64,000 bases of DNA from a candidate division KSB1 bacterium (GTDB lineage Bacteria; Zhuqueibacterota; Zhuqueibacteria; JANLFK01; Oleimicrobiaceae), in assembly GCA_024655945.1 (NCBI GenBank), contig JANLFK010000001.1, forward strand, positions 124,001 to 188,000, written 5' to 3'. This document shows positions 4,510 to 22,805 of this stretch, one piece after another. The translations under genes were made by a program, and so were the position numbers. The notes below the pieces were generated by a model. It saw only the letters and a list, made by a program, of their open reading frames with translations, searched no databases and was not told where the DNA came from. Numbering within the stretch: the stretch's first letter is position 1; every line of letters begins with the position of its first letter.

Positions 4510-4604
4510 CCTCTTGCCTCCAGCACTGTCTCGCCCACAAGCATCGGCCTGTCCCGCGAAGGCCAAACTCAGTCCAAAGCCTCCTACGCGCGGATCGCGC
4601 TCGG

Positions 4605-5093
4605 CTACCTTGCAAAAAGGAAGTAGGCGGCCAAGAGAAGCACGACCAAGGTTACCAGAGCAGTAATGGCGATGTGCAGCACCTGCTTGCGTTCCTTGCG
4701 CAAGCGGATGTTCTCCTCCACAAGCCGACGGTGCTCCACGATGCGCCGGATGAGGTTCGTCAGCTTCTCCGGCGGGAAGGGCTTCATCAGATAGTCGTAG
4801 GCCCCTTCCTTCATGGACTGGATGGCGTTCTCCACAGTGGCGTGAGCCGTGATCATCACCACGGGGAGATCCTTGTGCACCTCGTGGAGCTTCTTGAGCA
4901 AAGTGACGCCGTCCATGCCGGGCATCTTGATGTCCACCACCGCCACATCCACAGGGTGGTCCCTGACAAAGTTGATGGCGGCGAGCCCTTCGGCCTCGGT
5001 GTGGACCTGGAAGCCTTCCTCCTGGAACCACGCGCTAAGGGATTCGCGCATGATCGCCTCGTCATCAACGATAAGCACGCTTGCCTTGTCCAT
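4605..5093 (-). CDS. Receiver-domain protein with single C-terminal membrane helix
   Basis: A 162-residue response regulator closely related to its neighbour at 3934-4509. The receiver carries D10/D11, phosphoacceptor D54 (VVDIKMPGMDG) and K104 (LMKPFPPEKLTN). A basic helical linker leads to one hydrophobic helix of about 20 residues that ends the protein. There is no output domain. I chose ATG at 5093 (GGGAG upstream), not the ATG ten codons earlier, because it aligns with the start of the neighbouring receiver. The anchor suggests action at the membrane, perhaps on the hydrogenase or as a phosphate sink; this is inference. Confidence 0.88.
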   Translation of the reverse strand: MDKASVLIVDDEAIMRESLSAWFQEEGFQVHTEAEGLAAINFVRDHPVDVAVVDIKMPGMDGVTLLKKLHEVHKDLPVVMITAHATVENAIQSMKEGAYDYLMKPFPPEKLTNLIRRIVEHRRLVEENIRLRKERKQVLHIAITALVTLVVLLLAAYFLFAR

Positions 5094-5144
5094 CGCTTCA
5101 CTCCCATCCTGGTTGCACATCAATTGTGGCCAAGTGCCTCTTCT

Positions 5145-6264
5145 CTAAGCACGGTCAAACAGGACCACAAGTGCCATCTGCCCTTCGGGCAGAGAGCGGG
5201 TTTCGAACCTGCCACCGTAACGCTCCGCCACAATTCTTGCCACCGCCAAGCTGAGCACTGGGGGCGTTGGGCATTGACCAAGAAAGGGCGGCCGCTCGAG
5301 GGCGGCGACGATCTCCGGCGCAAGGCCTTCCCCGGCAAAGGAGACGGTCACCTCCACCATCTGCGCCGTAGCTGCAGCTCGCAGGGCAATCGCCCCCTCT
5401 CCTCCCAGGTAGCTGCCCGCGAAGTCCAGAAGGTTCTGAATCACCTGCACAAGACTCCAAAATTCTGCGCGGGCTGCGGGAAGGTCATCTGGGATGCCGA
5501 TTTCCACCTGCAGTTGGCTGAACGCTGGCACGTGGCGCATCACGGTCAGGGCGTGCTCAGCCGCCTCTTGCACGTTGACCGCTTGTGGCTGCGGCCTCCC
5601 CTCGGTGACGCACCGCATGGCATTCTCGATGGCGCGCAAAGAGGCCTTTGTCTCGCTCTCCGCAGCGGTGAGGCAGTCCATGAGGTGGCGCCGCTGGTCG
5701 GGTTCCAGCGCCACTCCTTCCCGGTACTCTCTCATGCGTTCCAAGGACTGAACCGCTCTCCGCAGGTCGCGGCCACAGTAGCTGACAAAGGCCTCGAAGG
5801 CTTGACCCACGTTCAGCAACTGCCGCGAATAGGTGAGCCAAGGGCGCACTTGCTCCCAGTCGGCATTCAGGCGATCGTACTCCATGGCCAGCCGCTGGTG
5901 AGTGATAATGTGCCGGATGAGGTTGGGCAGCTTCTCCGGAGGGAAAGGGCTTCATGACATAGTCGTATGCCCCATCCCGCATGCTGCGCACCGCGCTCTC
6001 CACCGTAGCATGGGCGGTCATCATCACCACTGGCAGGCGGTCATCCAGCTCACGCAGGCGCCTGAGCAGGGTGAGGCCGTCCATCCCCGGCATTTTGATA
6101 TCCAGCACGGCAATATCTGGCTTCGCCTGCTCGAAAAGCTCCAGGGCCTGTTCGCCAGATTCTACTGCGCACACGGCAAAGCCCTCGTCTTCCAGCCAAG
6201 CGCTGAGGGAATCGCGCACGATAGGCTCGTCATCGACAAGGAGTATGCGGGTCCGATCGCTCAG
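5145..6264 (-). CDS. Receiver fused to a degenerate histidine-kinase-like module, split by a one-base frameshift
   Basis: The first part, from about 6264 to 5940, encodes a receiver (LLVDDEPIVRDS, VLDIKMPGMDG, YVMKPFP) in one frame. The continuation lies in another frame: PPEKLPNLIRH runs into a 246-residue segment that begins MEYDRLNADWEQ and ends at 5145. Compared with its two paralogues there is one extra G in the run at 5941-5943, next to KPFP. The C-terminal part resembles a kinase dimerisation and ATPase region with an N-box-like VIQNLLDFAG but no clear G1/G2 boxes. No ATG or GTG start precedes the first receiver strand; a CTG at 6264 overlapping the kinase stop is one possibility. It may be a sequencing indel, a true mutation or a +1 slip on CCC-U. 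Confidence 0.7.
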
Positions 6265-8273
6265 GTGACTTCCACACCTCGGGTTTCCACTCCGCTCTTG
6301 GTCGGCATGAACAGCCTGAAGGTGGTTCCCTTGCCCACGGTGCTCTGCACATCAATGCGCCCGCCGTGCTTGGCCACAATGCTCGACACCACCGACAGTC
6401 CAAGCCCGGTTCCCTTCTGGTTCACCTTGGTGGTGAAAAATGGGTCAAAAATCCGCGGCAAGTTTTCCGGCGGTATCCCCACACCTGTGTCCTCAATCTC
6501 GATGAGCACATGCTCGTCATGGTCATTTGCCCGGCGTGCGGAGATGCGCAACTCGCCGCCTTCAGGCATCGCCTGGGCAGCGTTGATGATCAGGTTCAGC
6601 AGCACCTGTTGCATCTGTTTGCCATCGGCCATGAGGGGGGGAAGCCCTTCCTCATAGCGCTCGACGATGTTGATATTCTGCAGGGCAATCTGGTGCCGAA
6701 CCAAGAACAGGCTCTTCTTGACGATCTCTTCCACGGCCAAGGGCGTGATCGAGGGCTCGCTGGGCCGGGCAAACTCCAGCAGGTTTCTCACGATGTCCGA
6801 GCAACGAATGGTCTCGTGCTCCATGGTTTGCAAGTACTGGCGCAACTTGGCCAGGTCATCCCGCGGCACCTGGTCCGCAGAGAGCTTCTTTTGGATCAAC
6901 TTCAGGTAGGTCAATACCCCTGCCAGGGGATTGTTGATCTCGTGCGCCACGCCCGCAGCTAACTCGCCCATCGAAGCCAAGCGCGCCGAGCGAATCAACC
7001 GCTCCTGGGCTTCGATGATCTCGCGGTTCATTCTCTCCAGCCTGTCAATCAGGTACGGCAAACACATCTCCAGCTCGGCCAACCCCTGGAACACGGCGAC
7101 GGCCTTTTCCCGGCAGCTATTGTAGCCGCACGCGCCGCAGTTCAACTCGTCTTCCGGTCGAACTTTGGTGATTTTGGCCAGGATCTCCCTGATCTGCGCT
7201 TCGCTGGGCACCGGGCGGAGCTGGTTGTCGCTGGTCAAGCCGCGACTCAGCGGCACGGAGCGCAGCTCTTGGTATTGCCTTTCGCTGGAGGCCGCATCCA
7301 ACTCTGCCAGACGATTGCGCGCGTATCGGGCGACGATGTCTTTGCGAATGAACACGGAGAGCTCGTTATCCATCTTGGGGCCGGCAATGCAGCCACGACA
7401 GAACAGGAGGTCCAGAAAGCGCGCCTCTACCTTGCCCTCCTCCACCTTGTCCAGAATCTCGATCACGCGCTCTGGCCCTTCGGTGACGATGATGTCGTTG
7501 TCCAAGACATCCGCTTCGAGGGCCGCAGTCCTCAGCAAGCCGCCCGAGACCGGGAAAATACGGCCCACCCGCGGATGCGGGGGATCGAAGCTGCTCTCCT
7601 CCTCGGCCGCCAAGTCGATGCCCGCCTCGTTCAGCATCTCCTTGAGTTCTTGATAGGTCAGCACCTCGTCGATGACCCCGCCTACTTTGGGATCCACCTT
7701 TTCTTTCTTCTTGGCAATGCACGGGCCGATGAACACCAGATGGCTGTCCGGATCGTACTTGGCCTTGATTGCCCGGCCCGTCGCAATCATGGGAGAGACA
7801 ATGGGCGCCATGTGCAGAAGAAGCGCCGGGTGGTACTTCTGGATGAACTCGACAATAGCCGGACAGGGCGTGCTGATAATGGTAGTCATCGAGCTCTGCC
7901 GGAACAGACGCGCGTACTCGCTGGCAATCATGTCCGCGCCGACTGCCACTTCGACGACCTTTGCGAAACCCAACTTCTTGAGGGCCGCGACCAATTGCCC
8001 TGGCCGATGATCAGGAAAAGCCGCCGGGAACGAAGGCGCCAGCAGCGCGTAGACCAAACGGCCGTTGGCCAGAAGCTCGCGCGTGTGTTCAATGCCGCTC
8101 TCGATCCTCTTAGCCTTCTGCGCGCACACGAGGACGCAGTTGCCGCAGCCGATGCACCGCTCCTTGATGACCTCAGCCTGGCCCTCGACGATCTTGATGG
8201 CACGCGCGGGGCAATTGCGCACACAGGAGTAGCAGCGCTTGCACTTGTCACGAATTGTCTGGACGACCGGCAT
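6261..8273 (-). CDS. [FeFe]-hydrogenase-like (HsfB-type) sensor fused to a histidine kinase
   Basis: A 670-residue redox or H2 sensor kinase. Residues 1-55 hold two ferredoxin-type [4Fe-4S] motifs (CKRCYSCVRNC; CIGCGNCVLVC). Residues 70-320 resemble the large-subunit catalytic domain of [FeFe] hydrogenases and keep all four H-cluster cysteines: C137 (TPCPA), C185 (GPCIAKKKE), C292 and C295 (FCRGC). The proton-relay cysteine before C137 is proline. C379, C382, C387 and C404 form a CxxCG-type FeS domain. HisKA follows with H444 (GVAHEINNPLAG) and a full HATPase (NLIINAAQA, DTGVGI, GTGLGLS). No membrane segment is seen. It resembles group C sensory hydrogenases, but those usually carry PAS domains. 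It overlaps the downstream receiver gene and probably phosphorylates the three receivers. Confidence 0.9.
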   Translation of the reverse strand: MPVVQTIRDKCKRCYSCVRNCPARAIKIVEGQAEVIKERCIGCGNCVLVCAQKAKRIESGIEHTRELLANGRLVYALLAPSFPAAFPDHRPGQLVAALKKLGFAKVVEVAVGADMIASEYARLFRQSSMTTIISTPCPAIVEFIQKYHPALLLHMAPIVSPMIATGRAIKAKYDPDSHLVFIGPCIAKKKEKVDPKVGGVIDEVLTYQELKEMLNEAGIDLAAEEESSFDPPHPRVGRIFPVSGGLLRTAALEADVLDNDIIVTEGPERVIEILDKVEEGKVEARFLDLLFCRGCIAGPKMDNELSVFIRKDIVARYARNRLAELDAASSERQYQELRSVPLSRGLTSDNQLRPVPSEAQIREILAKITKVRPEDELNCGACGYNSCREKAVAVFQGLAELEMCLPYLIDRLERMNREIIEAQERLIRSARLASMGELAAGVAHEINNPLAGVLTYLKLIQKKLSADQVPRDDLAKLRQYLQTMEHETIRCSDIVRNLLEFARPSEPSITPLAVEEIVKKSLFLVRHQIALQNINIVERYEEGLPPLMADGKQMQQVLLNLIINAAQAMPEGGELRISARRANDHDEHVLIEIEDTGVGIPPENLPRIFDPFFTTKVNQKGTGLGLSVVSSIVAKHGGRIDVQSTVGKGTTFRLFMPTKSGVETRGVEVT

Positions 8274-8419: not shown

Positions 8420-8917
8420 TCACTTGCTGCCGATCATCGGGATATCCAGCTCCTCGAGGCTGGGAAAGTCGGTGAGTACCTTGCGTGCGACCTTTTTCGG
8501 GGCCAGTCCCAGCGCCACCGCCACGCCGTAGAGAATCGCCTCTGGCCGCGGGGGACAACCGGGCACGTAGAAGTCCACGGGGATTACCTTACCTACACCA
8601 CCGTAGATGTTGTAACTATCATAGAACACGTCACCGCCGCAGGCGCAAGAGCCTATGGCGAACACCAATTTCGGATTCGGGGTGGCGTCGTACAATCGCC
8701 GCAAAGAAGGGGCAATCTGGCGATTCACCGAGCCGGTCACCAGCAGGACATCGGCGTGCCGCGGCGACCCCACCAACTTGATGCCGAAGCGCTCGGCGTC
8801 ATAGTACGGCGTGAGCACGTTGATAATCTCAATGTCACAGCCGTTGCATGCCGAGGCATTGGTGTGATAAACCCACAACGCCTTGGGGAACGCTTTCAGA
8901 CAAAGTTTGCGCAACAT
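8420..8917 (-). CDS. hyfI: Group 4 [NiFe] hydrogenase small subunit (HyfI/EchC-like)
   Basis: This 165-residue subunit is homologous to NuoB and holds the [4Fe-4S] cluster that passes electrons to the [NiFe] site. The cluster ligands are visible as ACNGCDIE near residues 24-31, GSCACGG near residue 95 and the PGCPPRPE motif near residue 120. Like other group 4 small subunits it has no signal peptide and only one cluster. ATG at 8917 has GAGGTGA upstream. It is the last gene of the operon and ends just before a strong terminator. Confidence 0.93.
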   Translation of the reverse strand: MLRKLCLKAFPKALWVYHTNASACNGCDIEIINVLTPYYDAERFGIKLVGSPRHADVLLVTGSVNRQIAPSLRRLYDATPNPKLVFAIGSCACGGDVFYDSYNIYGGVGKVIPVDFYVPGCPPRPEAILYGVAVALGLAPKKVARKVLTDFPSLEELDIPMIGSK

Positions 8918-8950
8918 TCGGTCACCTCGGAAAGTGGGTACTCTAACCGG

Positions 8951-10483
8951 TCATGGGGTAGCCACACCCCTAGCCCAAATGGCGAGGACCGCGCGCGTGG
9001 CCGAGTCCAACGCCGGATGGAGGATGTGCGGATAGACACCAATCAAGATGCACAACAGGGCCAATACCACGATGCTGAACCGCATACCGAAGGGGACCTC
9101 GCGGAACTCACTTTGCTCTGACGCCCCCTCGACATTCTGTGGTTTCCGCCAGAACACGCGATAGGCGGCCCACACCAGGCAGGCCAGCGTGAGTAGACCA
9201 GTGAAGATAGAAATCGCCATTGCCCAATAGAGCCGCTCCTCGCCTATTGCCAAAAAGATGGTGAACTTGCTAACAAAGCCGTTGAACGGCGGCAACCCGC
9301 CCAAGGAAAGCGCGCCCACAAAGAAACAGAACGCGGTGATGGGCATCTTCTTGGCCAGTCCTCCCAGGCGCGAGATGCGGCGCACACCCCCGGTCGCGTA
9401 CATTACCGCCCCCACGCTCATGAAGAGCAGGGCCTTGACGATCGTATGGTTGACCACGTGGAACAACCCCCCGTAAATGCCCACGTATGTGCCCAAGCCC
9501 AGGCCTTCGAACACGTAGCTGATCTGACTGACACTGGAAAAGGCCAGCATGCGCTTCAGATCGTCTTGGACCAAGGCCATGAAGATGCCGATCAACATGC
9601 TCGCCGAGCTCAGGATGGCGATGAACACGATGACCGCATGGTAGGTGGGCGCAAAAATCGTGACGGTGCGCGATAGGGCGTAGGCGCCGAGCTTGATGAT
9701 CAGGCCGGAGAGCAGCGCACTGACCGGCGTAGGCGCCTCCGAGTGTGCGTCAGGAAGCCAGGCGTGGAACGGCACCAGACCGGCCTTGGTGGCAAAGCCC
9801 GCGGTCATAAACGCCACAGCAATGAGAGCGATGTTCTTGGGAATACGGGGAGCCACCATCCCGATCTCGGTGAGGCGCAGCGCGTGAATGCCCTCCGGCC
9901 GGAACTGGACAGCAGCGGCGAAAATCAGCACCATGCCGAAGAGAGCGAACGTCATGCCCACCACTACCAACAACACGTACTTGTAACCAGCTTCCAGGGA
10001 CGCTCTGCTCCGGTAGAAGGCCACCAACAAGGCCGTAGCCAATGTCGAGCCTTCCATCGCCACAAACAGCATGAGCATGTTGTTGGTGGTCACCGTCCAC
10101 ATCATGGTGCCGGTGAAAAGGAGGACGAGGGAATAGTAGAGGGCCAGGCGGCCTTCCGAAAAGGCCCCCTTCGCCTGCTCCTTGGCCATGTAGCGGCCCG
10201 ACTGGATGGTGATGAGCGTCACCATAAACGCCACCAGCAGGCTCATCAGCGCGCTCAAACCGTCGACGCTTATCGCCTCCCCAACGGCAACCACCCTGTG
10301 GCCAGACCAGACTGTGGCCGCCAATCGCACCGCAAGGGCGAGCTCCACCACCAGAATCGCCAGAGCCAGGGAATGGCGCGGCACGCGCACCTTGCCCAGA
10401 CTGAGCAGGGCGGTGAACACGGCACCGACAATGGGCAGGACAACGAGAACCAGGGGCAGCGCCGACGATACCGTTTCCGACAT
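8951..10483 (-). CDS. hyfF: Antiporter-like proton-channel subunit (HyfF/NuoN-M-like)
   Basis: A 510-residue, about 14-helix membrane protein of the proton-conducting NADH:quinone oxidoreductase/Mrp family. The signature AFHAWLPDAHSE-type block appears as LVPFHAWLPDAHSEAP, followed by a GLIIKLGAYAL helix bearing the conserved lysine. It would translocate H+ or Na+ coupled to electron flow through the hydrogenase. ATG at 10483 has GAGGGTAA upstream. It is one of three antiporter-like subunits in the operon, as many as in respiratory complex I. The assignment to HyfF rather than HyfD is by gene order. Confidence 0.9.
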   Translation of the reverse strand: MSETVSSALPLVLVVLPIVGAVFTALLSLGKVRVPRHSLALAILVVELALAVRLAATVWSGHRVVAVGEAISVDGLSALMSLLVAFMVTLITIQSGRYMAKEQAKGAFSEGRLALYYSLVLLFTGTMMWTVTTNNMLMLFVAMEGSTLATALLVAFYRSRASLEAGYKYVLLVVVGMTFALFGMVLIFAAAVQFRPEGIHALRLTEIGMVAPRIPKNIALIAVAFMTAGFATKAGLVPFHAWLPDAHSEAPTPVSALLSGLIIKLGAYALSRTVTIFAPTYHAVIVFIAILSSASMLIGIFMALVQDDLKRMLAFSSVSQISYVFEGLGLGTYVGIYGGLFHVVNHTIVKALLFMSVGAVMYATGGVRRISRLGGLAKKMPITAFCFFVGALSLGGLPPFNGFVSKFTIFLAIGEERLYWAMAISIFTGLLTLACLVWAAYRVFWRKPQNVEGASEQSEFREVPFGMRFSIVVLALLCILIGVYPHILHPALDSATRAVLAIWARGVATP

Positions 10484-10493
10484 GGGTTACCCT

Positions 10494-11159
10494 CTATCGC
10501 TTGAGTTCCGATAGTTTGGCCGAGTCCGTAGTGCCGAATACCTGGTAGATGTTACTACTGATGTAGAGGAGGATGAGCACAGCCGCGGCAACGTTGGTCA
10601 AAATGCCGATCATGGTGGTTTCCGAAAGCTGGGGCGCTAAAGCAAGCAGCACCAAGTGCACGCCATTTTCCATGAGCGCCAACCCCAGGACGGTCTTGAC
10701 TACGTCCCGGCGCGTGAGCAAGGCCCATAGACCCAGCGAAAAGATGGTAAAGGCCCCGGCAAGCAAAGAGCGTACCGGTTCGGTGCGAGCCGCCTCGTTC
10801 GGCGCAAGCAGGTAGGAATGGCTCTGAAAGAGCCGAAAGAAGACCACCACCAAGACGCCGATGGCCAGCACCGAGATCCCATGCCCGAGCATCGGCCTGT
10901 GCTCCTTGCTCGGGAACCTCTTGGCAAACTGGAAAAGGAGAGTGGGAATCACAATGATCTTGGTCAGAAAACAGGTGGCCGACCAAAGGTAAAGCGACGG
11001 GTTCTTAAAGAGGTAAGCATAGGCCGTTATTATCGAGAACAACAAGACCGAATGAAACAGGTAGAAGAAGGTGGTACTGCGCAAGTTGCGCAATTCCACA
11101 GCAACTACCGAGGTGATGAGGATGCCGAGGCTGAGCGTGACCAGAATGTTCCCTTCCAT
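10494..11159 (-). CDS. hyfE: HyfE-like membrane subunit (NuoK-related)
   Basis: A 221-residue membrane protein with about six hydrophobic helices. The C-terminal half (TVLGLALMENGVHLV) resembles NuoK/MrpC, as in hydrogenase-4 component E. It is predicted to sit between the antiporter-like and HyfC-like subunits in the proton-pumping arm. Only 10 bases separate it from the next gene and 3 from the previous one, so it is translated within the operon. ATG at 11159 follows GGGAGTAGGCA. Confidence 0.88.
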   Translation of the reverse strand: MEGNILVTLSLGILITSVVAVELRNLRSTTFFYLFHSVLLFSIITAYAYLFKNPSLYLWSATCFLTKIIVIPTLLFQFAKRFPSKEHRPMLGHGISVLAIGVLVVVFFRLFQSHSYLLAPNEAARTEPVRSLLAGAFTIFSLGLWALLTRRDVVKTVLGLALMENGVHLVLLALAPQLSETTMIGILTNVAAAVLILLYISSNIYQVFGTTDSAKLSELKR

Positions 11160-11162
11160 TGC

Positions 11163-11654
11163 CTACTCCCTCTGTCTCGGGCGCGGACCTCCATGGGGCA
11201 TGGAGGGGCCAACGAAGTTCCGGCCCTCGCGGTGGCGCCGCACCGGGATCTTGTCAATCGCGTTCTCCGTCTCAAAGCAGCGGCCACACCGCGCACAGGT
11301 CGCCATGTACAGCTCCTGCTCAATGTACAGGTCTTCCTTGTGGTCGGTGCTGTTCTCAAATTCCAGCGTCATGGTAATAGCCTGCTCAGGGCACACTTCG
11401 GCACACCGGCCACAATAGGTGCACCGATCCAGAATAAACTCCATGCGCGTGCGCTCGCCCTCGTCGTAGAACCGTATCAACCGCGAGGGGCAGACATTGG
11501 CGCAACCGCCGCAGGCGATGCAGCGCGTCTGGTCCACGGTGATCTTGCCCCGAAACCCTTCAGGCAGTTCCGCGCCAGGCCCGAAAGGATAAGGCAAGGT
11601 GACGCGAGGGTTCGAAAAACAGATGACCGCTTCCTTGAACTTGGCTCTGAACAT
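11163..11654 (-). CDS. hyfH: Ferredoxin-like Fe-S subunit (HyfH/NuoI-like)
   Basis: A 163-residue polyferredoxin that should link the electron-input module to the small subunit. Two [4Fe-4S] motifs are clear: CIACGGCANVCP near residue 45 and CTYCGRCAEVCP near residue 78. A third cysteine cluster, CARCGRC near residue 119, lies in the C-terminal tail and may bind another metal site; it is not general in HyfH. ATG at 11654 follows AGGGAG. It lies between hyfC and hyfE. Confidence 0.92.
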   Translation of the reverse strand: MFRAKFKEAVICFSNPRVTLPYPFGPGAELPEGFRGKITVDQTRCIACGGCANVCPSRLIRFYDEGERTRMEFILDRCTYCGRCAEVCPEQAITMTLEFENSTDHKEDLYIEQELYMATCARCGRCFETENAIDKIPVRRHREGRNFVGPSMPHGGPRPRQRE

Positions 11655-11703
11655 TGCGCTCCCTTTAGGCGATACCTGTTCTCTTGCTGTGCTCTATCGT
11701 TCC

Positions 11704-12621
11704 CTACGAACCTACCAACGCAAAGGCCAGTCCGGCAGCCGAGGCGAAAATAAGCAGCCCAAAGAACTGAATGGACTGATCGATGCGAAGGCGCGGGTTC
11801 ACCGCGTGTACCACGCCGACCAGAACCAAGAGCACAACCACCTTTGCGAGGGTAATGAGAGCATCAACTGCTAACTTACCCACGTGCGGCCAGGGGATGA
11901 ACACCGAAACAAGCAGCGAGGCGAAAATCAACTGCTTCGCGTAAAATCCCCATTTGAACAGAGCCAGCTTTGGCCCGCTCTGTTCCACAAAAGGCCCTGC
12001 CATGATCTCCTGGTCCGCCTCCACGATATCGAAGGGCAATCTGGCTACCTGCGCGACAATGGCCAAGAAGAGGGCTACTCCAACGATGACCATCGAGATT
12101 GAAGGTGGATGCGTCAGCTGCCAGCTCACCATGTCGCCGAACATCATCGAGCCAGATTTGACCGCCGCAGTGATGAGCGCGATGGCCAGCACTGGCTCCA
12201 CGGTCAGCACCATCATCACCTCTCGTCCGGCCCCCACAAGCCCGTACGGACTGCCAGAGCTTACGCCGCTCATGAAGATCATCACCGCTACCACCGAGAT
12301 GAGGTAGACAAACACGATGACCTCACCGGCAAAACCGAGCGGCGGTCTGCCCAACATCGGCACCAAGAGGCTGGCGGTCAGCACCGCCGTGAGCGCGATG
12401 ACTGCGGAGTAGCGAAAAAGAAAACTTCGCGAGCTTGCGATCTCCTCCTTGCCCAGCAGTTTGAGGATGTCCAGGTACGGCTGGAACAACGGAGGCCCGA
12501 TGCGCGAGTGGACAAAGGCGATGAGCTTCCGAATCACTCCCTCCAGCAGCGGGGAGAGCAGGAGCACCAGCGCCACTTGCAGCACGCTCAGACCAATTGT
12601 CTGGCCGAGACCGTAGTCCAT
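11704..12621 (-). CDS. hyfC: HyfC/NuoH-like membrane anchor subunit
   Basis: A 305-residue membrane protein with about eight helices, homologous to NuoH, HyfC and EchB. It anchors the hydrogenase head to the membrane and forms the first part of the coupling path. Recognisable blocks are RIGPPLFQPYLDILKLLGKEE near residue 40, SGSPYGLVGAGREVMM near residue 122 and LPFDIVEADQE near residue 195, the last with family-typical acidic residues. ATG at 12621 follows GGAGGAAAG. Confidence 0.93.
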   Translation of the reverse strand: MDYGLGQTIGLSVLQVALVLLLSPLLEGVIRKLIAFVHSRIGPPLFQPYLDILKLLGKEEIASSRSFLFRYSAVIALTAVLTASLLVPMLGRPPLGFAGEVIVFVYLISVVAVMIFMSGVSSGSPYGLVGAGREVMMVLTVEPVLAIALITAAVKSGSMMFGDMVSWQLTHPPSISMVIVGVALFLAIVAQVARLPFDIVEADQEIMAGPFVEQSGPKLALFKWGFYAKQLIFASLLVSVFIPWPHVGKLAVDALITLAKVVVLLVLVGVVHAVNPRLRIDQSIQFFGLLIFASAAGLAFALVGS

Positions 12622-12669: not shown

Positions 12670-14352
12670 CTACCTCTTGCTCCACCTCTCCTTGCAAAGT
12701 CGGAAGAGGTCAGCTTTGGTATAGACCTTGACCTCGCCCGAGCGCACGTCCACCGTCTCCAAGCGCTCGGTGCAAGAGAAACAGGGGTCGATGCTGCCCA
12801 GGGCGATGGGCACATCGGCGATGGTTTCGCCGAGCACCATGATAGGCACGCCCTGGAGGTTTTGGAACGTCGGCGCGCGCGCCTTCCACCGGTAAGGTCT
12901 GTTGTCCTCACCGGTGATGACGTAATGGTGTGTCTCGCCGCGAGGGGCTTCCACCGAAGATTGGCCAATGCGTCCGGGCGGGATTGGCTCGGTGATCTTG
13001 GCCTGAAGCGGCCCTCCAGGCATCATCGCCAAGCAGTCGCGGATGATGCGGATGGAATCTAAAGTCTCCTTGATGCGCACCACGGTGCGCGCCCAGATGT
13101 CCTCGGAGGTCTCCACCATCACGTTGGTCTCCACCTCGCCGTATGCGGCGTAGGGGTGGTCCACACGGATGTCGATGGCCACGCCCGAGCCACGCGCGGT
13201 GGGTCCAAGGAGCGAGTAGGCGCTGGCGTCCTTGTTGGGCAAGATCCCCACGTTCGCCAAACGGGCCAGCAGCGTGGTATCGGTCACCACGGCATCCAGC
13301 ACCGCCTTGGTCTCCCTCTCGATGCGCCCCAGGACCTCCATGAGCTCCGGGTGCATGGCCTTGGGAATGTCGCGCCGCACCCCGCCGACCACGTTGATGC
13401 CATAAAGCTTGCGGTTGCCGGTAATCTTTTCGCACAACCACATCACCGGCTCGCGGATGCGCCACGCTTGCATCAAGACGGTGTCGAAGCCGATGATATG
13501 CGCGGCGATGCCCAGCCACAGCAGATGGCTCTGGATGCGCTCCAACTCAAGGACGATGGTTCTGATATAGCGCGCCCGTCGCGGAACCTCGATTCCCCCT
13601 GCTTTTTCCACTGCCTGACAGTAACCCGTACTGTGCACCGTCCCTCATATACCACAAATCCGTTCGGCGAGGAACGGCACCTGGTTGTAGTTGAGCTGGC
13701 TGTCGGCAATTTTTTCCACGCCGCGATGGTTGTAGAAGCCGCGATAGTCGCCACCGACCACCCGCTCTCCTTCCACGAAGATCCGCCAATAGGAAGGCTC
13801 CTCCAGCACTGGGAAGAAGGGGCCGATGGGCACCACGGTCGCCCCTGGCGGGGGTTCTTTCAAAGGTGGCGCCGCTTCAGCCGCTGGCGGATTCCCGTTC
13901 CACGGGAAATCGCGGCGCAGGGGATGGAGTCCCTCGGGCCAGTCGTCGGCCAACACCAGGCGACGTGGGTCTGGGTGATTGCGCAGACGCACACCGAGCA
14001 GGTCTTGAACCTCCCGCTCGGCCCAGTTGGCAGCCGGGATGTCCGCGCTCCCGGTAATGGACTCGATCCACAGGTCATCCTCGGCCAACGGCGTGCGCAC
14101 CGTGACGAACAGATGGTCAGCCGCCAGGGAAAAGACGTGGTCCACCAGGTAACCACCATTGGCGTCGCGGTAGTCGGTGCCGGCGGTAATCACAAAGCGC
14201 CCACTCCGCTCGTGGAAAATGTGTCGCGCCACTTCCACGACAGCGTCGCGCTCCACGGTAAAGATCACCATGTCCGGCACCGGGTTGTCCGCCGACCTGA
14301 TGCGCGGCCCGAACCGACTGGTCATCTGGACGATTAGTTCACGTGCGGTCAT
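12670..14352 (-). CDS. hyfG: Group 4 [NiFe] hydrogenase large subunit with predicted selenocysteine (HyfG-like)
   Basis: A 560-residue catalytic subunit if an in-frame TGA (13645-13647) is read as selenocysteine. Residues 1 to about 110 are NuoC-like and the rest is NuoD-like, the same layout as E. coli HyfG/HycE. The N-terminal nickel motif reads R-I-C233-G-I-U236-G-T-V-H, where all known relatives have CGxCxxxH. Sequence similarity continues without a break on both sides (VPFLAER before, [14 protein letters not shown] after), in the same frame. The C-terminal motif DPC524-FSC527 keeps both cysteines and is followed by a 33-residue tail for HycI-type cleavage. A hairpin after the TGA fits a bacterial SECIS. 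I chose ATG 14352 (GGAGGTG upstream). The alternative is a Cys-to-stop mutation or a base-call error. Confidence 0.88.
13612..13637 (-). promoter_or_regulatory. Candidate bacterial SECIS hairpin
   Basis: On the minus strand, beginning 7 bases after the TGA, TGC-ACAGTA pairs with TACTGT-(CAG)-GCA, giving 9 base pairs with a 3-base bulge and the 5-base apical loop CGGGT. The distance from TGA to the loop is 16 bases and the second loop base is G, both as expected for bacterial SECIS elements recognised by SelB. It lies entirely inside the coding sequence. Confidence 0.65.
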
Positions 14353-14407: not shown

Positions 14408-16483
14408 TCAGAGGCCTCCCCCTGCCAAAGCAAACAGAATCACTACTCCCATGAGCACCCCGATCGCCAACCAGAGCAAGTAGACGTGGGGGATTCCCAC
14501 ATGAGTGCCGCTGAAAAAACGCATGAGCTTCATGAACCCGTCGGTGAGCGGATAGAAGAACCAATTGTCGACGTTCAGAACACGGCGCAGAAGCTTCCGC
14601 TGGTCGAGCTGCACGCGCGGGTAGCGGACCTGCGGATAGACACCAGGCTGCTCGTAGGCACCTATGCGGATCTTGAAAAACTGCTTGAAGGACAGGTACA
14701 GGCCGCGCGCCTTGTAGCGCACCTCCTCGTCGCTATGCACCTCGCCGCAATACCAGGTGGCGTCCTCGCGCACCGGCGCCGCCCCTGCCCGAAAAAGGCT
14801 CCATGAGAGAAGAAAACATATCACCGCGGCGATCAATATGACCAGCGGATTCCATGCTGCAACGGTACCGCTCCCCAAATCCACCAGCAATGGGCTGACA
14901 ATGCCTGCTGACGCAAGGGTGCCACTGCAGCCTGCCACGTCGCTTCCCACCAGAGCAAGCACCCCTTTCTGCACGGGCCCCACCGCTATCCACGGCAGGA
15001 TGCCAAAGAGCACCGAGGCCGCAGCCATCGCCACCTGCGGGACGAGCATGTTCACCGGCACCTCGCCCTCCCCATTCCTGGCCTGGCCTGGATTGAACTT
15101 GCCGAAAAAGGCGATGCCAAAGAACTTGACCCCATACGCCAGCGTGACCACCGAAATGAAGAGAGCCACAAGGGCAAGAAGCATAAACAGGGGCATCCGC
15201 ACACCGGCCTGCAACGAAGCCTGGAAGAAGAGCCACTTGCTGGAGAACCCGGCCAGCAGAGGCATCCCCGCCATGGATAAGCCGGCAATGACCGCCGTCG
15301 TGGCACTGATCGGCATGAGCCGCGCCAGTCCGCCCACCAGGTTCAGATCGCGCGTGCCCGAACGGTAGTAGACGGCGCCTGCATTGTAGAACAAACACGA
15401 CTTGAAGAGGACGTTGTTGACCAGATGGAACAGGGTTGCCACCAGGGCGATCGTTGCCCACAGCGGCGCACTGGGCAGGAAATACAGGCCGATGCCGATG
15501 CCCAAGAGCAGGTACCCCATCTGCCCCACCACCGAGAAGGAAAGAAGCTTCTTGGTGTCATCCTGCGCCAAGGCGGTCATCGACCCCAAGAAGATGGACA
15601 ACGTGCCGCAAAGCGCCATCACCAAGCCCCAGGGCTTGTCAATCTCTGCCACCGTGCCCGGGGAAAAGAAGACACGCAAGAGCCCGTACAGGCCGATCTT
15701 GGACATGATGCCACCGAAAGTGGCCGCAGCCGGGGCCGGAGCCGCCGGGTACGCATCTGGCAACCAGTCTCCAAAGGGAAGAATGCCCGCCTTGGTCGAA
15801 AAGCCCACGAAGAAGAACGTCAATGCGATGTGCAACAGCCCCCGCTGCTCTTGTACCATCCCGGCCATCGCCGCGCCAAGATCGGAAAAGGCAAAGGAGC
15901 GGCTTTGGGTGTACACGATGACGGCGCCCACAAACATCAGAGTTGTGGCCACGTGGGTCATGAAAAAGTACTTGAACCCTGCGCGTGTTCGCTCCGCCTG
16001 GTCTTTGTTGAAGATCACCAGCACGTACGAAGTCAGCGTCATTATCTCCCAGAAGATGAAAAAGAAAAACAGGTCGGCAGTCACCACGATGCAGGAGATG
16101 GCGGCAAGGAAGCAGAGGAAGAAAGGATAGAAGGCCCGCAGGCTAAGTCCGGCATAGAGGGGCAGCGCCATGAACCGCGTGGCATAGAGGGCCGACATGG
16201 TGCCGAGCAAAGAGATGAGCAACAAGAAGACCGCACTGAGCGCGTCGATACTCAACACCAAACTGGCCCCGAGGCCGGGCACGGTCATCAGCGGCCTGTC
16301 CGTCACTACGGCGCCACCGACGAGCACCTGCACAGCAGCCAAGCTCAGCCCGATGGCTGCCAAGAGGGTTGCCACAAACGAGAGGTATCCGACCAAGGTG
16401 CGCTTTCTACCAAACGCCAGCGCAAGCGCCGCACCCACCAGCAGAATGCCAATCGACCACTGAAATAGCACGATGGGGTTCAT
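14408..16483 (-). CDS. hyfB: Antiporter-like subunit with long C-terminal extension (HyfB-like)
   Basis: A 691-residue membrane protein of the NuoL/HyfB type. The proton-channel core (about residues 60-430) shows [13 protein letters not shown] and [18 protein letters not shown], with the TM-lysine block [13 protein letters not shown]. After residue 480 an extra region includes a soluble loop ([19 protein letters not shown]) and a final membrane helix, comparable to the lateral-helix region of NuoL and HyfB. ATG at 16483 follows GGGAG. Its stop lies 55 bases before the large-subunit start. Confidence 0.9.
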
Positions 16484-16535
16484 CTATGAGGACTCCCTTC
16501 TGCAGTGCAACTATTCTCTCTGCCGTCCTTCTCCC

Positions 16536-18065
16536 TCAGAAACCGATCTGATGAGCGAAAGCAAGCGCCACAAAGGGGGCAACCACACAGAGCACTATCA
16601 GCACCACCAAAGAGAAAGACATGGCAAGAGGGGGATTGCCCGCAACCTCTGCCGCAGGGCTCACCCTGCCGAAGAAGACCTTCTGGCCCACGCGCAAAAA
16701 CCAGGCAAAGGCGATGATGATTTCCAGCAGAAACGGCACCAGAAGGAGATAACCGGCGACTCCTCCCACCTCCACGGCACCAAGGATCAGGAAGAACTTG
16801 CTCCAGAATCCGGAGAATGGGGGCACACCCAGGATGGCGAACATCCCCACCAGGAAAGCCACGGCAATGAGGGGCGCCTTCTTGGCGAGCCCGCTGAGCT
16901 CCTTGATGCTGCGCGTGCCGGTCACGTAGGAAATCGCCCCCACGCACAAGAAGAGCAGGCCCTTGCCCACGCCGTGATTCATGATGTGCATAATCCCGCC
17001 CAGCATGCCGGAACGCGAGCCCATGATGCCGAAAGACAGGCCCAGGAGAATGTACGATAGGTGCGTGATCGTGGAAAAGGCAAGTAAGCGCTTCAAATCA
17101 TCCTGGAAAAAGAACATGTAGACGCCGACCAACATGGTGACCACGGCCATGATGCCAAGGAGCAGTCCGGACCCCATCGACAGCTGCTCGGTGGCGGTGC
17201 TTACGCGGGCAATCAAGAAGACGCCGGCTTTGACCATGGCGGCCGCGTGCAAGTACATGCTGACGGTAGTCGGTGCCGCCATGGCATCGGGCAACCAGGT
17301 GTAGAAGGGAACCTGTGCGGACTTGGCCCAGGCGGCAACCAAAAAGCAAGCAAAGAGTAAGCTGCGCAGGCCTGGCGTCAATTGGTCTAAGGCACCAAAG
17401 TCAAAGGTACCGGTCTTCACGAAGATGGCGACCAGGGCCACCGCGAAAAAGACCCCGCCGGAGTAGGTCATGAGCAAAGCCTTGAAACCGGCGCGGAGCG
17501 ACTCGTCGTTACGATAGTGGGAGATCAGCGCGTAAGAGGTGAGCGTGGTGAGCTCCCAGAAGATGTAGAGCTGGAGCAGGTTTGGCGAAATCGCCACCCC
17601 GATCATTGAGGCCACGAAAAGGAGCAACCAGAAGTGGTGGCGCTCCTTCCCTTCGCGGGAGGAGTGCTCCTTGTTGCCTTTGCCAATGTAGTCCAGGGCG
17701 TAGACGATCACCAAGAACCCGAGCACGGCAACCACCGTGAGCATGAGCATGCCTAAAGGATCCAGCAGGTAGCCGAACAGCGGCACTGGCTCGGCGCCGA
17801 GGCGCGGCACCGTGCCTGCCGGCCCTGCTTCGACCTGCATCGGCCGCTCTTCGGCTTCCCCGCGGAACTTGATCAGCCACGGCACCGAGATGGTCACCGA
17901 GCGCTCCGTTCCCGGAAAAACGCCGCCGATGATCGAAGCCGCCACAATCAGCATGAGCCCCACGGCTACCAGGGCCGAGAGGTCGCTCCACTTCCGCCGC
18001 AATAGCCCGGAAAGAACTGCACCTGCCACGGGAAACAATAGGAGAAGCACTACAAGTGTACTCAT
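16536..18065 (-). CDS. hyfD: Antiporter-like subunit (HyfD/MrpA-ND5-like)
   Basis: A 509-residue membrane protein with the ND5/MrpA-type signature QVPFYTWLPDAMAAPTTVS followed by LHAAAMVKAGVFL. These carry the lysine and histidine residues used for proton transfer in the family. An acidic, charged soluble loop (around residues 75-100) interrupts the first helices. Its ATG overlaps the stop of the maturation protease gene (ATGA), which indicates translational coupling. The hyfD label follows gene order only; sequence alone would also allow an MbhH- or MrpD-like name. Confidence 0.87.
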   Translation of the reverse strand: MSTLVVLLLLFPVAGAVLSGLLRRKWSDLSALVAVGLMLIVAASIIGGVFPGTERSVTISVPWLIKFRGEAEERPMQVEAGPAGTVPRLGAEPVPLFGYLLDPLGMLMLTVVAVLGFLVIVYALDYIGKGNKEHSSREGKERHHFWLLLFVASMIGVAISPNLLQLYIFWELTTLTSYALISHYRNDESLRAGFKALLMTYSGGVFFAVALVAIFVKTGTFDFGALDQLTPGLRSLLFACFLVAAWAKSAQVPFYTWLPDAMAAPTTVSMYLHAAAMVKAGVFLIARVSTATEQLSMGSGLLLGIMAVVTMLVGVYMFFFQDDLKRLLAFSTITHLSYILLGLSFGIMGSRSGMLGGIMHIMNHGVGKGLLFLCVGAISYVTGTRSIKELSGLAKKAPLIAVAFLVGMFAILGVPPFSGFWSKFFLILGAVEVGGVAGYLLLVPFLLEIIIAFAWFLRVGQKVFFGRVSPAAEVAGNPPLAMSFSLVVLIVLCVVAPFVALAFAHQIGF

Positions 18066-18562
18066 GTAGTCGCGCCCTCGTCTGATGTCATCCCAAGCAG
18101 CTCGTTGATAAGTGCCCGCAGAAGTTCCACGCTCTCCCGCACTGCAGGGGAGAGTCCAGCGCCGAGCCCGAGTTCGGCCGGCTGAATGCCGATGAGCACC
18201 ACCTCAGCCCCTGTCTCCGCCCGCAGATAGTCGATCACCGTGCGCAATGAGGCGTGATGCGTGTCAAACCTCTTTTCCGTCAAGCCATCTGCATCGAGGA
18301 TGGCGATCGCCCCCGGCTCTTCCCCCAAGTCAAGCGCATCCGCAATCAGTATCGTATCCGGCTGGAAGTCTTTGACCGGGCCCGTATACGCTTCGGGCAC
18401 GTCCCCGCAGTCAATTGGGCAGAACCGCCCGCTCCGCACCAGGCCCCTTGCCAGAATCGAACCCGCCTGATCATCGCCCCGCCACTCGCTACCCACGCCC
18501 ATGAGCACCACCCGCCCATGGAGCAGCGATTCGAGGGCGCCGGCCAGGCCCTCCGGCTTCAT
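18062..18562 (-). CDS. hycI: Hydrogenase maturation endopeptidase, HycI type
   Basis: A 166-residue protease that removes the C-terminal peptide of the large subunit after nickel insertion. The family motif GVGSEWRGDDQAG (about residues 22-34) has Ser where most members have Asn; IADALDLGEEPG and the FDTHHASL block supply the other nickel-sensing residues. The likely target is the TER|LETVDV site after C527 of the large subunit. The gene is coupled by ATGA overlaps to both neighbours. The dedicated protease shows the enzyme is matured despite the in-frame TGA in its substrate gene. Confidence 0.9.
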   Translation of the reverse strand: MKPEGLAGALESLLHGRVVLMGVGSEWRGDDQAGSILARGLVRSGRFCPIDCGDVPEAYTGPVKDFQPDTILIADALDLGEEPGAIAILDADGLTEKRFDTHHASLRTVIDYLRAETGAEVVLIGIQPAELGLGAGLSPAVRESVELLRALINELLGMTSDEGATT

Positions 18563-18903: not shown

Positions 18904-19728
18904 TCAGCGCTCGGGCAACACCTTGATCTGTCGCCAGCTGAACACCGGCCCGTCCACGCAGATGTACTTGTGGCCAATGGCGCAATGGCCACACTTCCCC
19001 ACGCCGCATTTCATGTAGCGCTCTAAGGTGGAGATGATGTGATCGTCCGCAAAGCCCATGGCCAACAGATCCTGAATGACGAACCGGATCATGATCGGCG
19101 GTCCGCAGGTGAATGCGAAAGTGCGCTTCGGGTCCACCTTGATTTTCTCAAAGAGAGTGGTGACCACCCCGACCGGCCCGGTCCACGTCTCATCGGCGCG
19201 GTCGACGGTCTGGAGAAGGCGCACATCGTCGCGCGCGGCCCACTCCTCCAGGGCGTCCTTGTACACCCGATCAGTTGGGGTGCGCGCCCCGTACAGGATG
19301 GTAAACTCTCCGAACTTGTTTCTCTTGTCGAAAATGGGTTCGATGAGGGAGCGCAGCGGCGGCAACCCGATGCCACCGGCCACAATGAGGATGTCGTGGC
19401 CCATCACCTCTTCGAAGGGAAAGCTGTTGCCAAGGGGGCCGCGTACGCCGAACACGTCGCCGACTTTGGCCTCATGCAGGGCGTTGGTCACCGTGCCGGT
19501 GGCACGCACCGTGATGCGGAAGTTACCCTTGCGCAGGGGGTTTGAGCACAGCCCGAAGGGGGCCTCCCCCTTGCCAAAGACGGACACTTCCACAAATTGC
19601 CCTGGCTTGTAACTGAAGGCCTTGTTGTACCTCTCGTCCAAAAAATGAAGGGTGAACGTCTTGGTATCGGGTGTCTCATCCACAATCTGGTCGATGACCG
19701 CCAGCTGTGGGAGGTAGAGGTTTTCCAT
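18904..19728 (-). CDS. FAD/NAD(P)-binding reductase subunit (sulfhydrogenase gamma / AsrB-like)
   Basis: A 274-residue ferredoxin-NADP reductase-type protein. FAD binding is indicated by PFGLCSNPLRKG and the GPLGNSFPF loop, NAD(P) binding by VAGGIGLPPLRSL and FTCGPPIM. The C-terminal cysteines CGVGKCGHCAIG...C bind a [2Fe-2S] cluster, as in HydG of Pyrococcus hydrogenase I and in the dihydroorotate dehydrogenase electron-transfer subunit. In this operon it would exchange electrons with NAD(P)H. ATG at 19728 follows AGGAAG. It is paired with the beta-like subunit directly upstream. Confidence 0.9.
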   Translation of the reverse strand: MENLYLPQLAVIDQIVDETPDTKTFTLHFLDERYNKAFSYKPGQFVEVSVFGKGEAPFGLCSNPLRKGNFRITVRATGTVTNALHEAKVGDVFGVRGPLGNSFPFEEVMGHDILIVAGGIGLPPLRSLIEPIFDKRNKFGEFTILYGARTPTDRVYKDALEEWAARDDVRLLQTVDRADETWTGPVGVVTTLFEKIKVDPKRTFAFTCGPPIMIRFVIQDLLAMGFADDHIISTLERYMKCGVGKCGHCAIGHKYICVDGPVFSWRQIKVLPER

Positions 19729-19752
19729 TCCGCTACTTCCTCGCCTTGTCGT

Positions 19753-20841
19753 TCACGAAGAGTGCCGTTGTGCGCCCAGCTGCTCGGGCTCTGGTTGTCC
19801 TTCACGCCGCAGCCGCTTGACCACGGCGGGCAAGTCCAAGAGCCCGATGGCCTCGCAGACCGTGATGCACCTTCCGCAACCTACGCAGCCTTGGTGGCCG
19901 TCCAGCTTGACGTAGGCATAGCTCAACTTGTGGTAGAAGCGGCGCTTGATGCGCTCCTTGGTCTTTTCGCGCGGATTGTGCCCAGACGCCTCTCGCGTGA
20001 AGCCGGAATATTGACACGAATCCCAACAGCGCAAGCGCACCCCGCACGTCGGCGACTCCATGTAGTCAGCCACGTCGTAGCAAGTGCAGACCGGACAGAC
20101 GTGGGTACAGCCTCCACAGCTGAAGCATTCGAAACCCATCTCCTCCCACAGCTCCTCCCGGACGCGATTATTGGTGATCTGGATGATGGCCTTGGCCACA
20201 TAGGCGGTGGGCACCATCTGGCTGTCGCACTTGGCCATGAGCTCCTTGCGCCGCTGCAAGTCCTCCTGCGTGGCAGCCACCAGCCCCTTCTTGATTTTCT
20301 CCAGGATGGCAATCCCCTTTTTGCTCCCCACGTGGATGAGATAACGGTCACCAAAGTCGGTCAGCTGCAGGTCAAATCCAGCCTCCAGCCACGGACCGCC
20401 ATCACAGCAGATACAAAAGCAGGTGTCTAAAGGCTTATTGCAGGCGACGCTGATGATTGTGGTGTTCGCCCGCTTTTCGAGGTAGTAGTTGTCCAAGTAG
20501 GTGCCGGAGAAAAACTTGTCCCAATGCAGGATCCCCTTCACGTCGCAGGAGCGAATGCCACAGAGGACCTGTGGGGAGGAGTCCACCAGCGGCTCAAAGG
20601 TCGGGCGTTTGCCCAGGGTGAAGCGAAACAAGTCCTGCCGATGCGGGATGAGGAACCGTTTGACAGGGTCGAACTCGTTGACATAGTCGAAGGTGAACTC
20701 CGCCACGGAAGCCACCTCGCGGAAAACCACATCGCCGTCCGGTCCGGGTGTCGGCCCGATCAACTTGGCGCCCTTTCGCAGCGAGTCGAGCACGGCGAGG
20801 AACGCCTGTTTGTCGATGGTGTACTTCTGGCCGACCTTCAT
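19753..20841 (-). CDS. Fe-S electron-transfer subunit (sulfhydrogenase beta / AsrA-like)
   Basis: A 362-residue cytoplasmic Fe-S protein of the HydB/AsrA family. The N-terminal domain has GIRSCDVKGI and the cysteine cluster CNKPLDTCFCICCDGG. Two ferredoxin motifs follow: CFSCGGCTHVCPVC near residue 234 and CVGCGRCITVC near residue 315. In group 3b hydrogenases and anaerobic sulfite reductase this subunit bridges the FAD/NAD subunit and the catalytic core, so here it likely passes electrons between NAD(P)H and the hydrogenase arm. ATG at 20841 (GGAGG upstream) overlaps the stop of the FdhA-like gene (ATGA), so I prefer it to the in-frame start eight codons earlier. Confidence 0.9.
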   Translation of the reverse strand: MKVGQKYTIDKQAFLAVLDSLRKGAKLIGPTPGPDGDVVFREVASVAEFTFDYVNEFDPVKRFLIPHRQDLFRFTLGKRPTFEPLVDSSPQVLCGIRSCDVKGILHWDKFFSGTYLDNYYLEKRANTTIISVACNKPLDTCFCICCDGGPWLEAGFDLQLTDFGDRYLIHVGSKKGIAILEKIKKGLVAATQEDLQRRKELMAKCDSQMVPTAYVAKAIIQITNNRVREELWEEMGFECFSCGGCTHVCPVCTCYDVADYMESPTCGVRLRCWDSCQYSGFTREASGHNPREKTKERIKRRFYHKLSYAYVKLDGHQGCVGCGRCITVCEAIGLLDLPAVVKRLRREGQPEPEQLGAQRHSS

Positions 20842-22805
20842 GCTACCTCCACTCTTGCCGCGCAAACCTTCATCTCGGGGATCTTGGACTGCTGTTCGAG
20901 CTTATCGTTGGCCAAAACATTGGTGAGGCCATCTTTGTAGTGAAGGGAGGCAAAAACGACTTTCGGTGGCACACCGCGCGTCACCTGTACCGTGCGCTCG
21001 ATGGTACCACGCGGGGTCGTCACCCTGGCTTTCCATCCGGAGCGGAGACCAAGCTCCTTGGCATCATCGGTATTCACTTCCAGGACCCCCTCTGGATACT
21101 CTTTGGCCAAGGTGAACGAGCGCGAAACCAATGTGCCCGACACGCGGTGTACGCGCCCCCGGCCAATGACGAGGGTGAATGGGTAGTTCTGGTCGGGGAA
21201 CTCACTGGGAGGCACGTAGCGCGCAGCAAGAAGCTTGGCATCGGCCAAAGATGGCAACGGTCGTGCCACCGGCCACTGCACGCCCCCAGGTCGATTTAAA
21301 TCCTGGTAGCTGATGCCCTGGTACCACGGATTGACAGTGGCAATTTCCGCAAAGACGTCCGCAGGCGAACGATACGCCATGCGTGCAGCCAGCTTCTTGG
21401 CCAGGGTGAGGAATATCTCCCAGTCTGGCTTTGCCTCCCCCACTGGCGGAATGGCCGCGCGCACCCTTTGGATGCGCCGCTCCAAGTTGGTAAATGTGCC
21501 CTCCTTCTCCGCGTAGCTGCAGGCAGGCAGCACCACGTGCGCAAGCTCTGCAGTTTCGGTCAGGAAAAGATCCTGGACCACAAGGAAGTCCAGCCGCTCC
21601 AACGCAGCTTTGGCAGCGCCAGAGTTGGGTGCATCCCAGACCAGATTCTCGCCGACCACGTACATGGCCTTTATCTGGTCGCCGGCGGCCTGCAGCATCT
21701 CGCCAAGTGTCAAGCCTGGCTTCTTCGGCAACGCGCTGGGAAGGACTTTGCCCAAGCAGGAAGCAGCCTCCCGGTCCTCCAACCGGGCGAAACCAGGCAA
21801 AAACCCTGGAGCCAGCCCCATATCCAACACACCCTGCATGTTGTTGGCCGGGTGAAGGGGCAAGAGACCCGCCCCTGGTCTGCCGATGTTGCCGGTGAGC
21901 ACGAGCAGGTTAACCAGCGCCTTGACTGCCTCAGTTCCCGAAGCCTGCTGCGTGACCCCGTTCCCGTAGAGAACGAGCAACCGTTGCGCGCCGCTGACAG
22001 TTTCGCCCAACCTTGCCAGCTGCTCGGAGGGGATTCCGCTGAGCTGGGCGGCACTGTCCGGCGTAAAGGATTCCAACGCCTTGGCCAAGGCATTGACGCC
22101 ACGAGCCTCCGCAACTTGGCGATTGCTGCGAATCAGCCAGTTGCACAGCGCGTTCAGCCACACCACGTCGCTGCCCGGCTTGGGGCGCAGATGAAGAGTG
22201 GCAAAGTGGGAAAGTTCGGTCTCTCTGGGATCAACGACGACAACCTTGGCGCCGTGGCGGGCGGCCCACAGCACGTACGACCCCGCCTTGGCGCTTTGCT
22301 CCTTAGGATTGGCGCCCACCACGAGCAGCACGTCGGCCTCTTCAATATCGGTGAGGGAAGCGGTAGCCGCAGCAAAACCGAGCTGGGCGCTGAGCGCATG
22401 CAGGGTGGGCGCTTGGTAGAACCGGGCGCCCGTGTCTACGTTGTCGGTACCAAGCACCCCACGGGCAAGTTTCATCAGCAGGTAGCTGTCCTCGTTGGTG
22501 CACTTGGTGGAGCCCACCACGCCGATGCCTGTCGGGTCAAAGCTCTTGAGCGTCTTGGCTACCAGGGCAATTGCCGCCTCCCAAGACGCCTCCTGAAACT
22601 TGCCGTTCTTCTTGATGAGAGGCCTGCGTAACCGGCCGGGGTGGTGGATGATCTGGTGCCCGTTCCACCCTTTGACGCAGAGGGTCCCCCTACTCACAGG
22701 GTGTCGACGTTGCGGCGCTACCCCTAAGACTCGTTCCCCCTCGACAGCCAAGAGAACACCACATCCGCACCCGCAGAAAGGACACGTCGTGAGGACCTTG
22801 CTCAC
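20838..22805 (-). CDS. FdhA/NuoG-like molybdopterin-fold subunit lacking the catalytic Cys/Sec
   Basis: A 655-residue member of the molybdopterin oxidoreductase family and first gene of the operon. The N-terminal [4Fe-4S] site is intact (C8, C11, C15, C43 followed by VKG), and the MopB core (VGSTKCTNEDSYLLMKL; VVGANPKEQ; VVDPRE) and the C-terminal molydopterin-dinucleotide binding domain are present. At the position where formate dehydrogenases have AR-x-Cys/Sec-His it reads A-R-F-Y130-Q131, so both the metal ligand and the catalytic histidine are gone. Formate oxidation is therefore unlikely; a NuoG-like electron-transfer role is more plausible. GTG start at 22805 with AAGGAG upstream. The codon at 130 is TAC, so this is not a second recoding site. 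Confidence 0.85.
   Translation of the reverse strand: MSKVLTTCPFCGCGCGVLLAVEGERVLGVAPQRRHPVSRGTLCVKGWNGHQIIHHPGRLRRPLIKKNGKFQEASWEAAIALVAKTLKSFDPTGIGVVGSTKCTNEDSYLLMKLARGVLGTDNVDTGARFYQAPTLHALSAQLGFAAATASLTDIEEADVLLVVGANPKEQSAKAGSYVLWAARHGAKVVVVDPRETELSHFATLHLRPKPGSDVVWLNALCNWLIRSNRQVAEARGVNALAKALESFTPDSAAQLSGIPSEQLARLGETVSGAQRLLVLYGNGVTQQASGTEAVKALVNLLVLTGNIGRPGAGLLPLHPANNMQGVLDMGLAPGFLPGFARLEDREAASCLGKVLPSALPKKPGLTLGEMLQAAGDQIKAMYVVGENLVWDAPNSGAAKAALERLDFLVVQDLFLTETAELAHVVLPACSYAEKEGTFTNLERRIQRVRAAIPPVGEAKPDWEIFLTLAKKLAARMAYRSPADVFAEIATVNPWYQGISYQDLNRPGGVQWPVARPLPSLADAKLLAARYVPPSEFPDQNYPFTLVIGRGRVHRVSGTLVSRSFTLAKEYPEGVLEVNTDDAKELGLRSGWKARVTTPRGTIERTVQVTRGVPPKVVFASLHYKDGLTNVLANDKLEQQSKIPEMKVCAARVEVA

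Follow-up and report, generated by a model that had tools for sequence, protein, structure and literature searches.

In [NiFe] hydrogenase structures, the second cysteine of the L1 motif bridges nickel and iron, and the first L1 cysteine is a terminal nickel ligand. Nature replaces one of the four cysteine ligands by UGA-inserted selenocysteine in the [NiFeSe] hydrogenases, which include HysA of Desulfovibrio and FrhA/VhuU of methanogens, and in these enzymes the selenocysteine is located in a C-terminal UxxC motif, where it serves as a terminal nickel ligand. The group 4 membrane-bound hydrogenases, among them HycE of the E. coli formate hydrogenlyase and Mbh of P. furiosus, combine a NuoC-NuoD-like large subunit bearing L1 and L2 with antiporter-like membrane subunits and a HycI protease, and their known members carry four cysteines. 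Selenocysteine has been placed in L1 by engineering, in the E. coli Hyd-2 variants C61U and C64U, each of which is man-made and holds one selenocysteine (PMC11212049). Among other selenoproteins, selenocysteine pairs with UxxU spacing are known from proteins of the thiol oxidoreductase type, which are thioredoxin-like or metal-binding and not hydrogenases (PMC13188914). A 2026 inventory of prokaryotic selenoproteins, which distinguishes 119 families and subfamilies and counts different selenocysteine positions separately, lists selenocysteine-containing hydrogenase large subunits with the UxxC motif only and no L1 type (PMC13188914). Likewise, a natural selenocysteine in L1 did not turn up in searches limited to openly accessible papers.

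The locus described here, from an uncultured bacterium, lies within a 64,000-nucleotide stretch of DNA (the window) and encodes a group-4-type large subunit whose L1 motif is interrupted by an in-frame TGA. It is likened to the [NiFeSe] hydrogenases by a predicted UGA-inserted selenocysteine at one of the four ligands, but differs from them in hydrogenase group, in retaining a C-terminal CxxC, and in the position of the predicted selenocysteine, which falls in the N-terminal L1 at the bridging ligand or, in some relatives, at both L1 ligands. Compared with known group 4 enzymes, it shares the general architecture but adds the predicted selenocysteine and an FdhA-like partner that lacks catalytic residues. 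The features of the gene are as follows.

12670-14352 (-): HycE-like (NuoC-NuoD fusion) [NiFe] hydrogenase large subunit, read through one TGA
13654-13656 (-): first L1 cysteine codon, TGT, Cys233; replaced by TGA in L019 and the double-TGA relatives described below
13645-13647 (-): in-frame TGA at the second L1 cysteine position, predicted selenocysteine 236
13618-13634 (-): putative SECIS upper hairpin, ACAGTA-CGGGT-TACTGT, with its loop at 13624-13628 and a lower stem reaching about 13609-13640
12772-12783 (-): C-terminal DPCFSC with Cys524 and Cys527, both cysteine codons; the classical selenocysteine site is unused

The frame comprises 561 codons including a TAG stop, such that readthrough would yield a product of 560 residues, and a plain list of open reading frames broke the gene in two at the UGA. 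The motif reads RICGI-U-GTVH, the TGA replacing the second cysteine; AERICGI lies directly N-terminal to the TGA-encoded position and the frame stays open on both sides. An earlier note on this DNA, made from the letters alone, had claimed a TGA at the second L1 cysteine with homology continuing in the same frame on either side, and this is borne out by the best solved relative, E. coli HycE (PDB 7z0s chain E; 411 bits, residues 25-555), which aligns across the site with a cysteine at the matching position. An AlphaFold2 model of the large subunit (pLDDT 84) superimposes on the same chain with a TM score of 0.90. The note's reading of the C-terminal motif as keeping both cysteines is also correct, and with two cysteines in DPCFSC and no UxxC a classical [NiFeSe] hydrogenase is ruled out.

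Taken together, the data described below favor the interpretation, with a probability of roughly 0.93, that selenocysteine is inserted at the UGA at 13647-13645, giving a full-length group-4-type large subunit with a selenolate at the second L1 ligand. The note's selenocysteine interpretation is thereby supported.

The machinery such decoding would require, for which the note had proposed a search, is present. The genome encodes selB (350 bits), a tRNA-Sec (75 bits, anticodon TCA) within 1 kb downstream of it, selA (568 bits) and two selD genes scoring over cut-off, so that SelA, SelB, SelD and tRNA-Sec are all represented. One of the two selD genes (L091 from base 1531, genome G000, contig 19) contains a UGA of its own within SAAGUAAK, and this second SelD is predicted to be another selenoprotein, with selenocysteine at the UxxK site of SelD. 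Most of the UGA-bearing genomes yielded a tRNA-Sec or SelB. Neither was found in G008 (loci L075 and L108), which is rated 100% complete and has both UGA and hairpin, although its congener G003 has both, nor was either found in G059 and G107, which are less complete; in G106, the genome of L019, a tRNA-Sec is present and SelB has no match at the threshold used. Only a fraction of the candidates is scored in the tRNA search, so a tRNA-Sec may have been missed.

Conservation of the site was assessed by a single scan of a species-genome collection, which returned 71 related loci, and the codons at both L1 positions were read from the alignment. The note had suggested that close relatives be compared: among genomes searched in the window's class, every one of the 15 close orthologues (65-100% identity, counting the genome's own copy) has a single TGA, none has a cysteine codon at that site, and more distant homologues use TGC or TGT. 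For the part of the gene past the TGA, pairwise dN/dS, where computable, is 0.02-0.06, a sign of strong purifying selection; this part is therefore translated and selected.

Evidence at the level of RNA comes from the putative SECIS element. The hairpin starts 10 nt past the UGA, and 16 nt separate the UGA from the loop. Published bSECIS criteria call for a loop of 3-9 nt with G in one of the first two places, a stem of 4-16 bp, a spacing of 16-37 nt and a minimum free energy of at most -7.5 kcal/mol (PMC13188914). The window hairpin lies within all of these bounds (loop CGGGT, 6 bp, 16 nt, -9.9 kcal/mol with the extended stem), and that of L009 falls short in energy (-6.8 vs -7.5 kcal/mol). 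Given the protein encoded, the window hairpin taken alone is not beyond chance (energy z = +0.47; best-stem p = 0.09), and for this reason single-sequence folding was dropped as evidence. It is only through comparison among relatives that the hairpin becomes convincing, and here the case for a SECIS element appears strong: the six Watson-Crick stem pairs are intact in 21 of 21 TGA genes and in none of 63 cysteine homologues, and the loop G is found in 21/21 and 5/63, respectively. The note's claim of a SECIS hairpin at 16 bases thus holds with respect to the published criteria and the comparison of genes, but not as a significant feature of the window by itself.

Additional signals surround the hairpin. 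The isoleucine codon preceding the second-site UGA (13648-13650 (-) in the window) is ATA in 20/20 UGA genes as compared with 3/63 cysteine genes, perhaps reflecting decoding context. At the site, a stretch of 12 codons shows a synonymous codon identity of 0.85, compared with 0.455 (sd 0.089) as the mean over the gene; the highest-scoring segment of the gene begins four codons further on, and the cysteine genes reach 0.53 there. Judged by sequence comparison, selection on the RNA at this site is specific to the UGA genes. In the stem of L059 a U-A pair has been replaced by C-G, a compensatory change, and at the same place L179 forms a 7-bp stem of unrelated sequence (ACTCCAC/GTGGAGT). Since five of the six stem pairs are invariant, the aligned UGA genes show only weak covariation, and an Rfam scan of the site returned no hit at E values up to 1. 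In three cysteine homologues, L014, L057 and L017, the RNA forms six stem pairs when G-U is allowed, and L014 belongs to the sister group of the window's clade; these stems are possible SECIS remnants or a pre-adaptation.

Going beyond the earlier note, the relatives include other lineages in which TGA replaces the first L1 cysteine, or both of them. In one clade (L037, L049, L058, L140, L142) and, separately, in L059 of the Armatimonadota, TGA takes the place of both L1 cysteines (RI-U-GI-U-G); in these double-TGA relatives the frame is otherwise open, DPCFSC is kept, and the UGAs lie nine bases apart with one hairpin after them. In L019 only the first L1 cysteine is replaced, and in L179, whose genome is outside the window's class set, only the second. 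A quick tree, built minus the site columns, without bootstrap and with L179 left out, groups the window's type as one clade (SH-aLRT 95) and places the double type at two positions. The tree takes four changes for the four states, and at least three for the cysteine group alone. The predicted L1 selenocysteine has arisen at least three times.

The gene is situated in an operon whose remaining members are listed here.

20838-22805 (-): FdhA-like molybdopterin protein without catalytic Cys/Sec and His
18904-20865 (-): FAD/NAD-binding HydG-like subunit and 4Fe-4S HydB-like subunit (Pfam, synteny)
18062-18562 (-): HycI-type maturation protease (TIGR00142 102.8 bits, below the cut-off of 119.1; TIGR00072 over its cut-off; PF01750)
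14408-18065 (-): HyfB-like (14408-16483) and HyfD-like (16536-18065) membrane subunits (synteny)
8420-12621 (-): homologues of HyfC, HycF, HyfE, HyfF and HycG, the NuoB-like small subunit (synteny)

The order FdhA-like, 4Fe-4S protein, FAD/NAD protein, HycI, HyfD, HyfB, HycE, followed by HyfC, HycF, HyfE, HyfF and HycG, is conserved within the window's class and mostly so in other lineages, where hycI is relocated and hyfD is sometimes undetected. L1 and L2 thus occur on a NuoD-like subunit accompanied by NuoH- and NuoL-like membrane subunits and a NuoB-like small subunit, as in group 4 [NiFe] hydrogenases. The FdhA-like protein reads DTGARFYQAPT where FdhF of HDCR reads DHCARLCHAPT, and its syntenic homologues likewise have no Cys/Sec there; it is likely an electron-transfer or structural subunit. 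No formate dehydrogenase subunit with a catalytic Cys/Sec followed by His was found in the operon, and because the FdhA-like subunit lacks these residues the complex is probably not a formate hydrogenlyase. Given the presence of a flavin/NAD-binding subunit, NAD(P)H or ferredoxin is the more likely electron donor. Adjoining the operon, at 6261-8273 (-), is a histidine kinase fused to [FeFe]-hydrogenase-like and ferredoxin domains, a possible H2 or redox sensor that also adjoins the operon in L205-L207. Successive response-regulator-like open reading frames, two of them with hydrophobic stretches at the end, occupy 3934-6219 (-).

Several explanations other than selenocysteine insertion can be offered for the TGA. 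Because this genome, like those of its relatives, is a draft assembly, a stop-codon pseudogene or an error of sequencing or assembly might be suspected, but the same TGA recurs in 14 distinct sequences that stem from separate genomes and assemblies, and this conservation, together with the low dN/dS downstream of the codon, effectively refutes the suggestion. The note had argued against decay from a maturation protease and an intact operon, and both are present, the protease being of the HycI type. A genome recoded such that TGA is a sense codon throughout would account for the one TGA read through in HycE; it was already judged unlikely in the note and can now be ruled out, since 9 of the 14 genes in and next to the operon terminate in TGA, which is thus a normal stop in this genome, HycE alone has a well-internal TGA, and the selenocysteine pathway is present. 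The cysteine found at the site in homologues would suit a UGA read as cysteine, or as another residue, by a near-cognate or mischarged tRNA. This reading is highly improbable in view of the full selenocysteine pathway, a hairpin within the bSECIS bounds, and RNA-level selection confined to UGA genes.

If selenocysteine insertion is correct, SelB and tRNA-Sec would decode the UGA, guided by the hairpin 16 nt downstream, and in the product the second L1 ligand, a thiolate bridging nickel and iron in known enzymes, would become a selenolate. Some relatives seem to use a single hairpin for both UGAs, which would place selenocysteine at two L1 ligands. We infer both the selenium in the protein and its bridging position, the bridging role from homology to solved enzymes. 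During maturation of E. coli HycE, C244 is probably the first site to take up the Fe(CN)2CO group, and C241 is required for HypC binding (PMC12134894). Since C244 is the equivalent of the window's TGA site, a selenocysteine there would presumably matter in maturation as well as in the form of a bridging selenolate. The chemistry is plausible, for E. coli Hyd-2 variants with selenocysteine engineered at any one of the four ligands were all active; a marked electrochemical change was seen only for C546U, the classical position (PMC11212049).

This last result lends some weight to the idea that the UGA acts mainly as a selenium-dependent switch, at which the ribosome would stop and no hydrogenase would be made when selenium is lacking, the selenocysteine itself having no chemical advantage over cysteine. 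Such a switch is unlikely, though less so than the alternatives above: it could sit anywhere in the gene, and repeated origins at the same two ligands, even at both at once, would not be expected of it. Under selenocysteine insertion with a chemical benefit, the most likely advantages, offered as best guesses, are easier reductive rescue of an oxidised site or faster maturation and cofactor insertion.

That the L1 pair appears to have changed from cysteine to selenocysteine several times in group-4-type enzymes would point to a selective benefit of selenium there. It is quite probable that nature has [NiFe] hydrogenases in which a selenolate bridges nickel and iron, and others with selenolates at two of the four ligands at once, and that selenocysteine in L1 is beneficial to them. 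Unlike the engineered Hyd-2 variants, the predicted selenocysteines are natural, conserved and, in some lineages, double, the last with the UxxU spacing of the oxidoreductase-type selenoproteins; it appears that nature, too, employs active-site designs hitherto known only in engineered form. Gene prediction that ends a frame at UGA cuts such genes short, and these enzymes may therefore be missed in annotations. The double-UGA genes, in turn, provide a natural test of one SECIS element serving two UGA codons. Selenium in [NiFe] hydrogenases has so far been recorded at one ligand, a position that engineering work treats as special; recurrent natural selenocysteine at the bridging ligand, at the other L1 ligand or at both would make the role of each ligand in catalysis, oxygen recovery and cofactor insertion testable.
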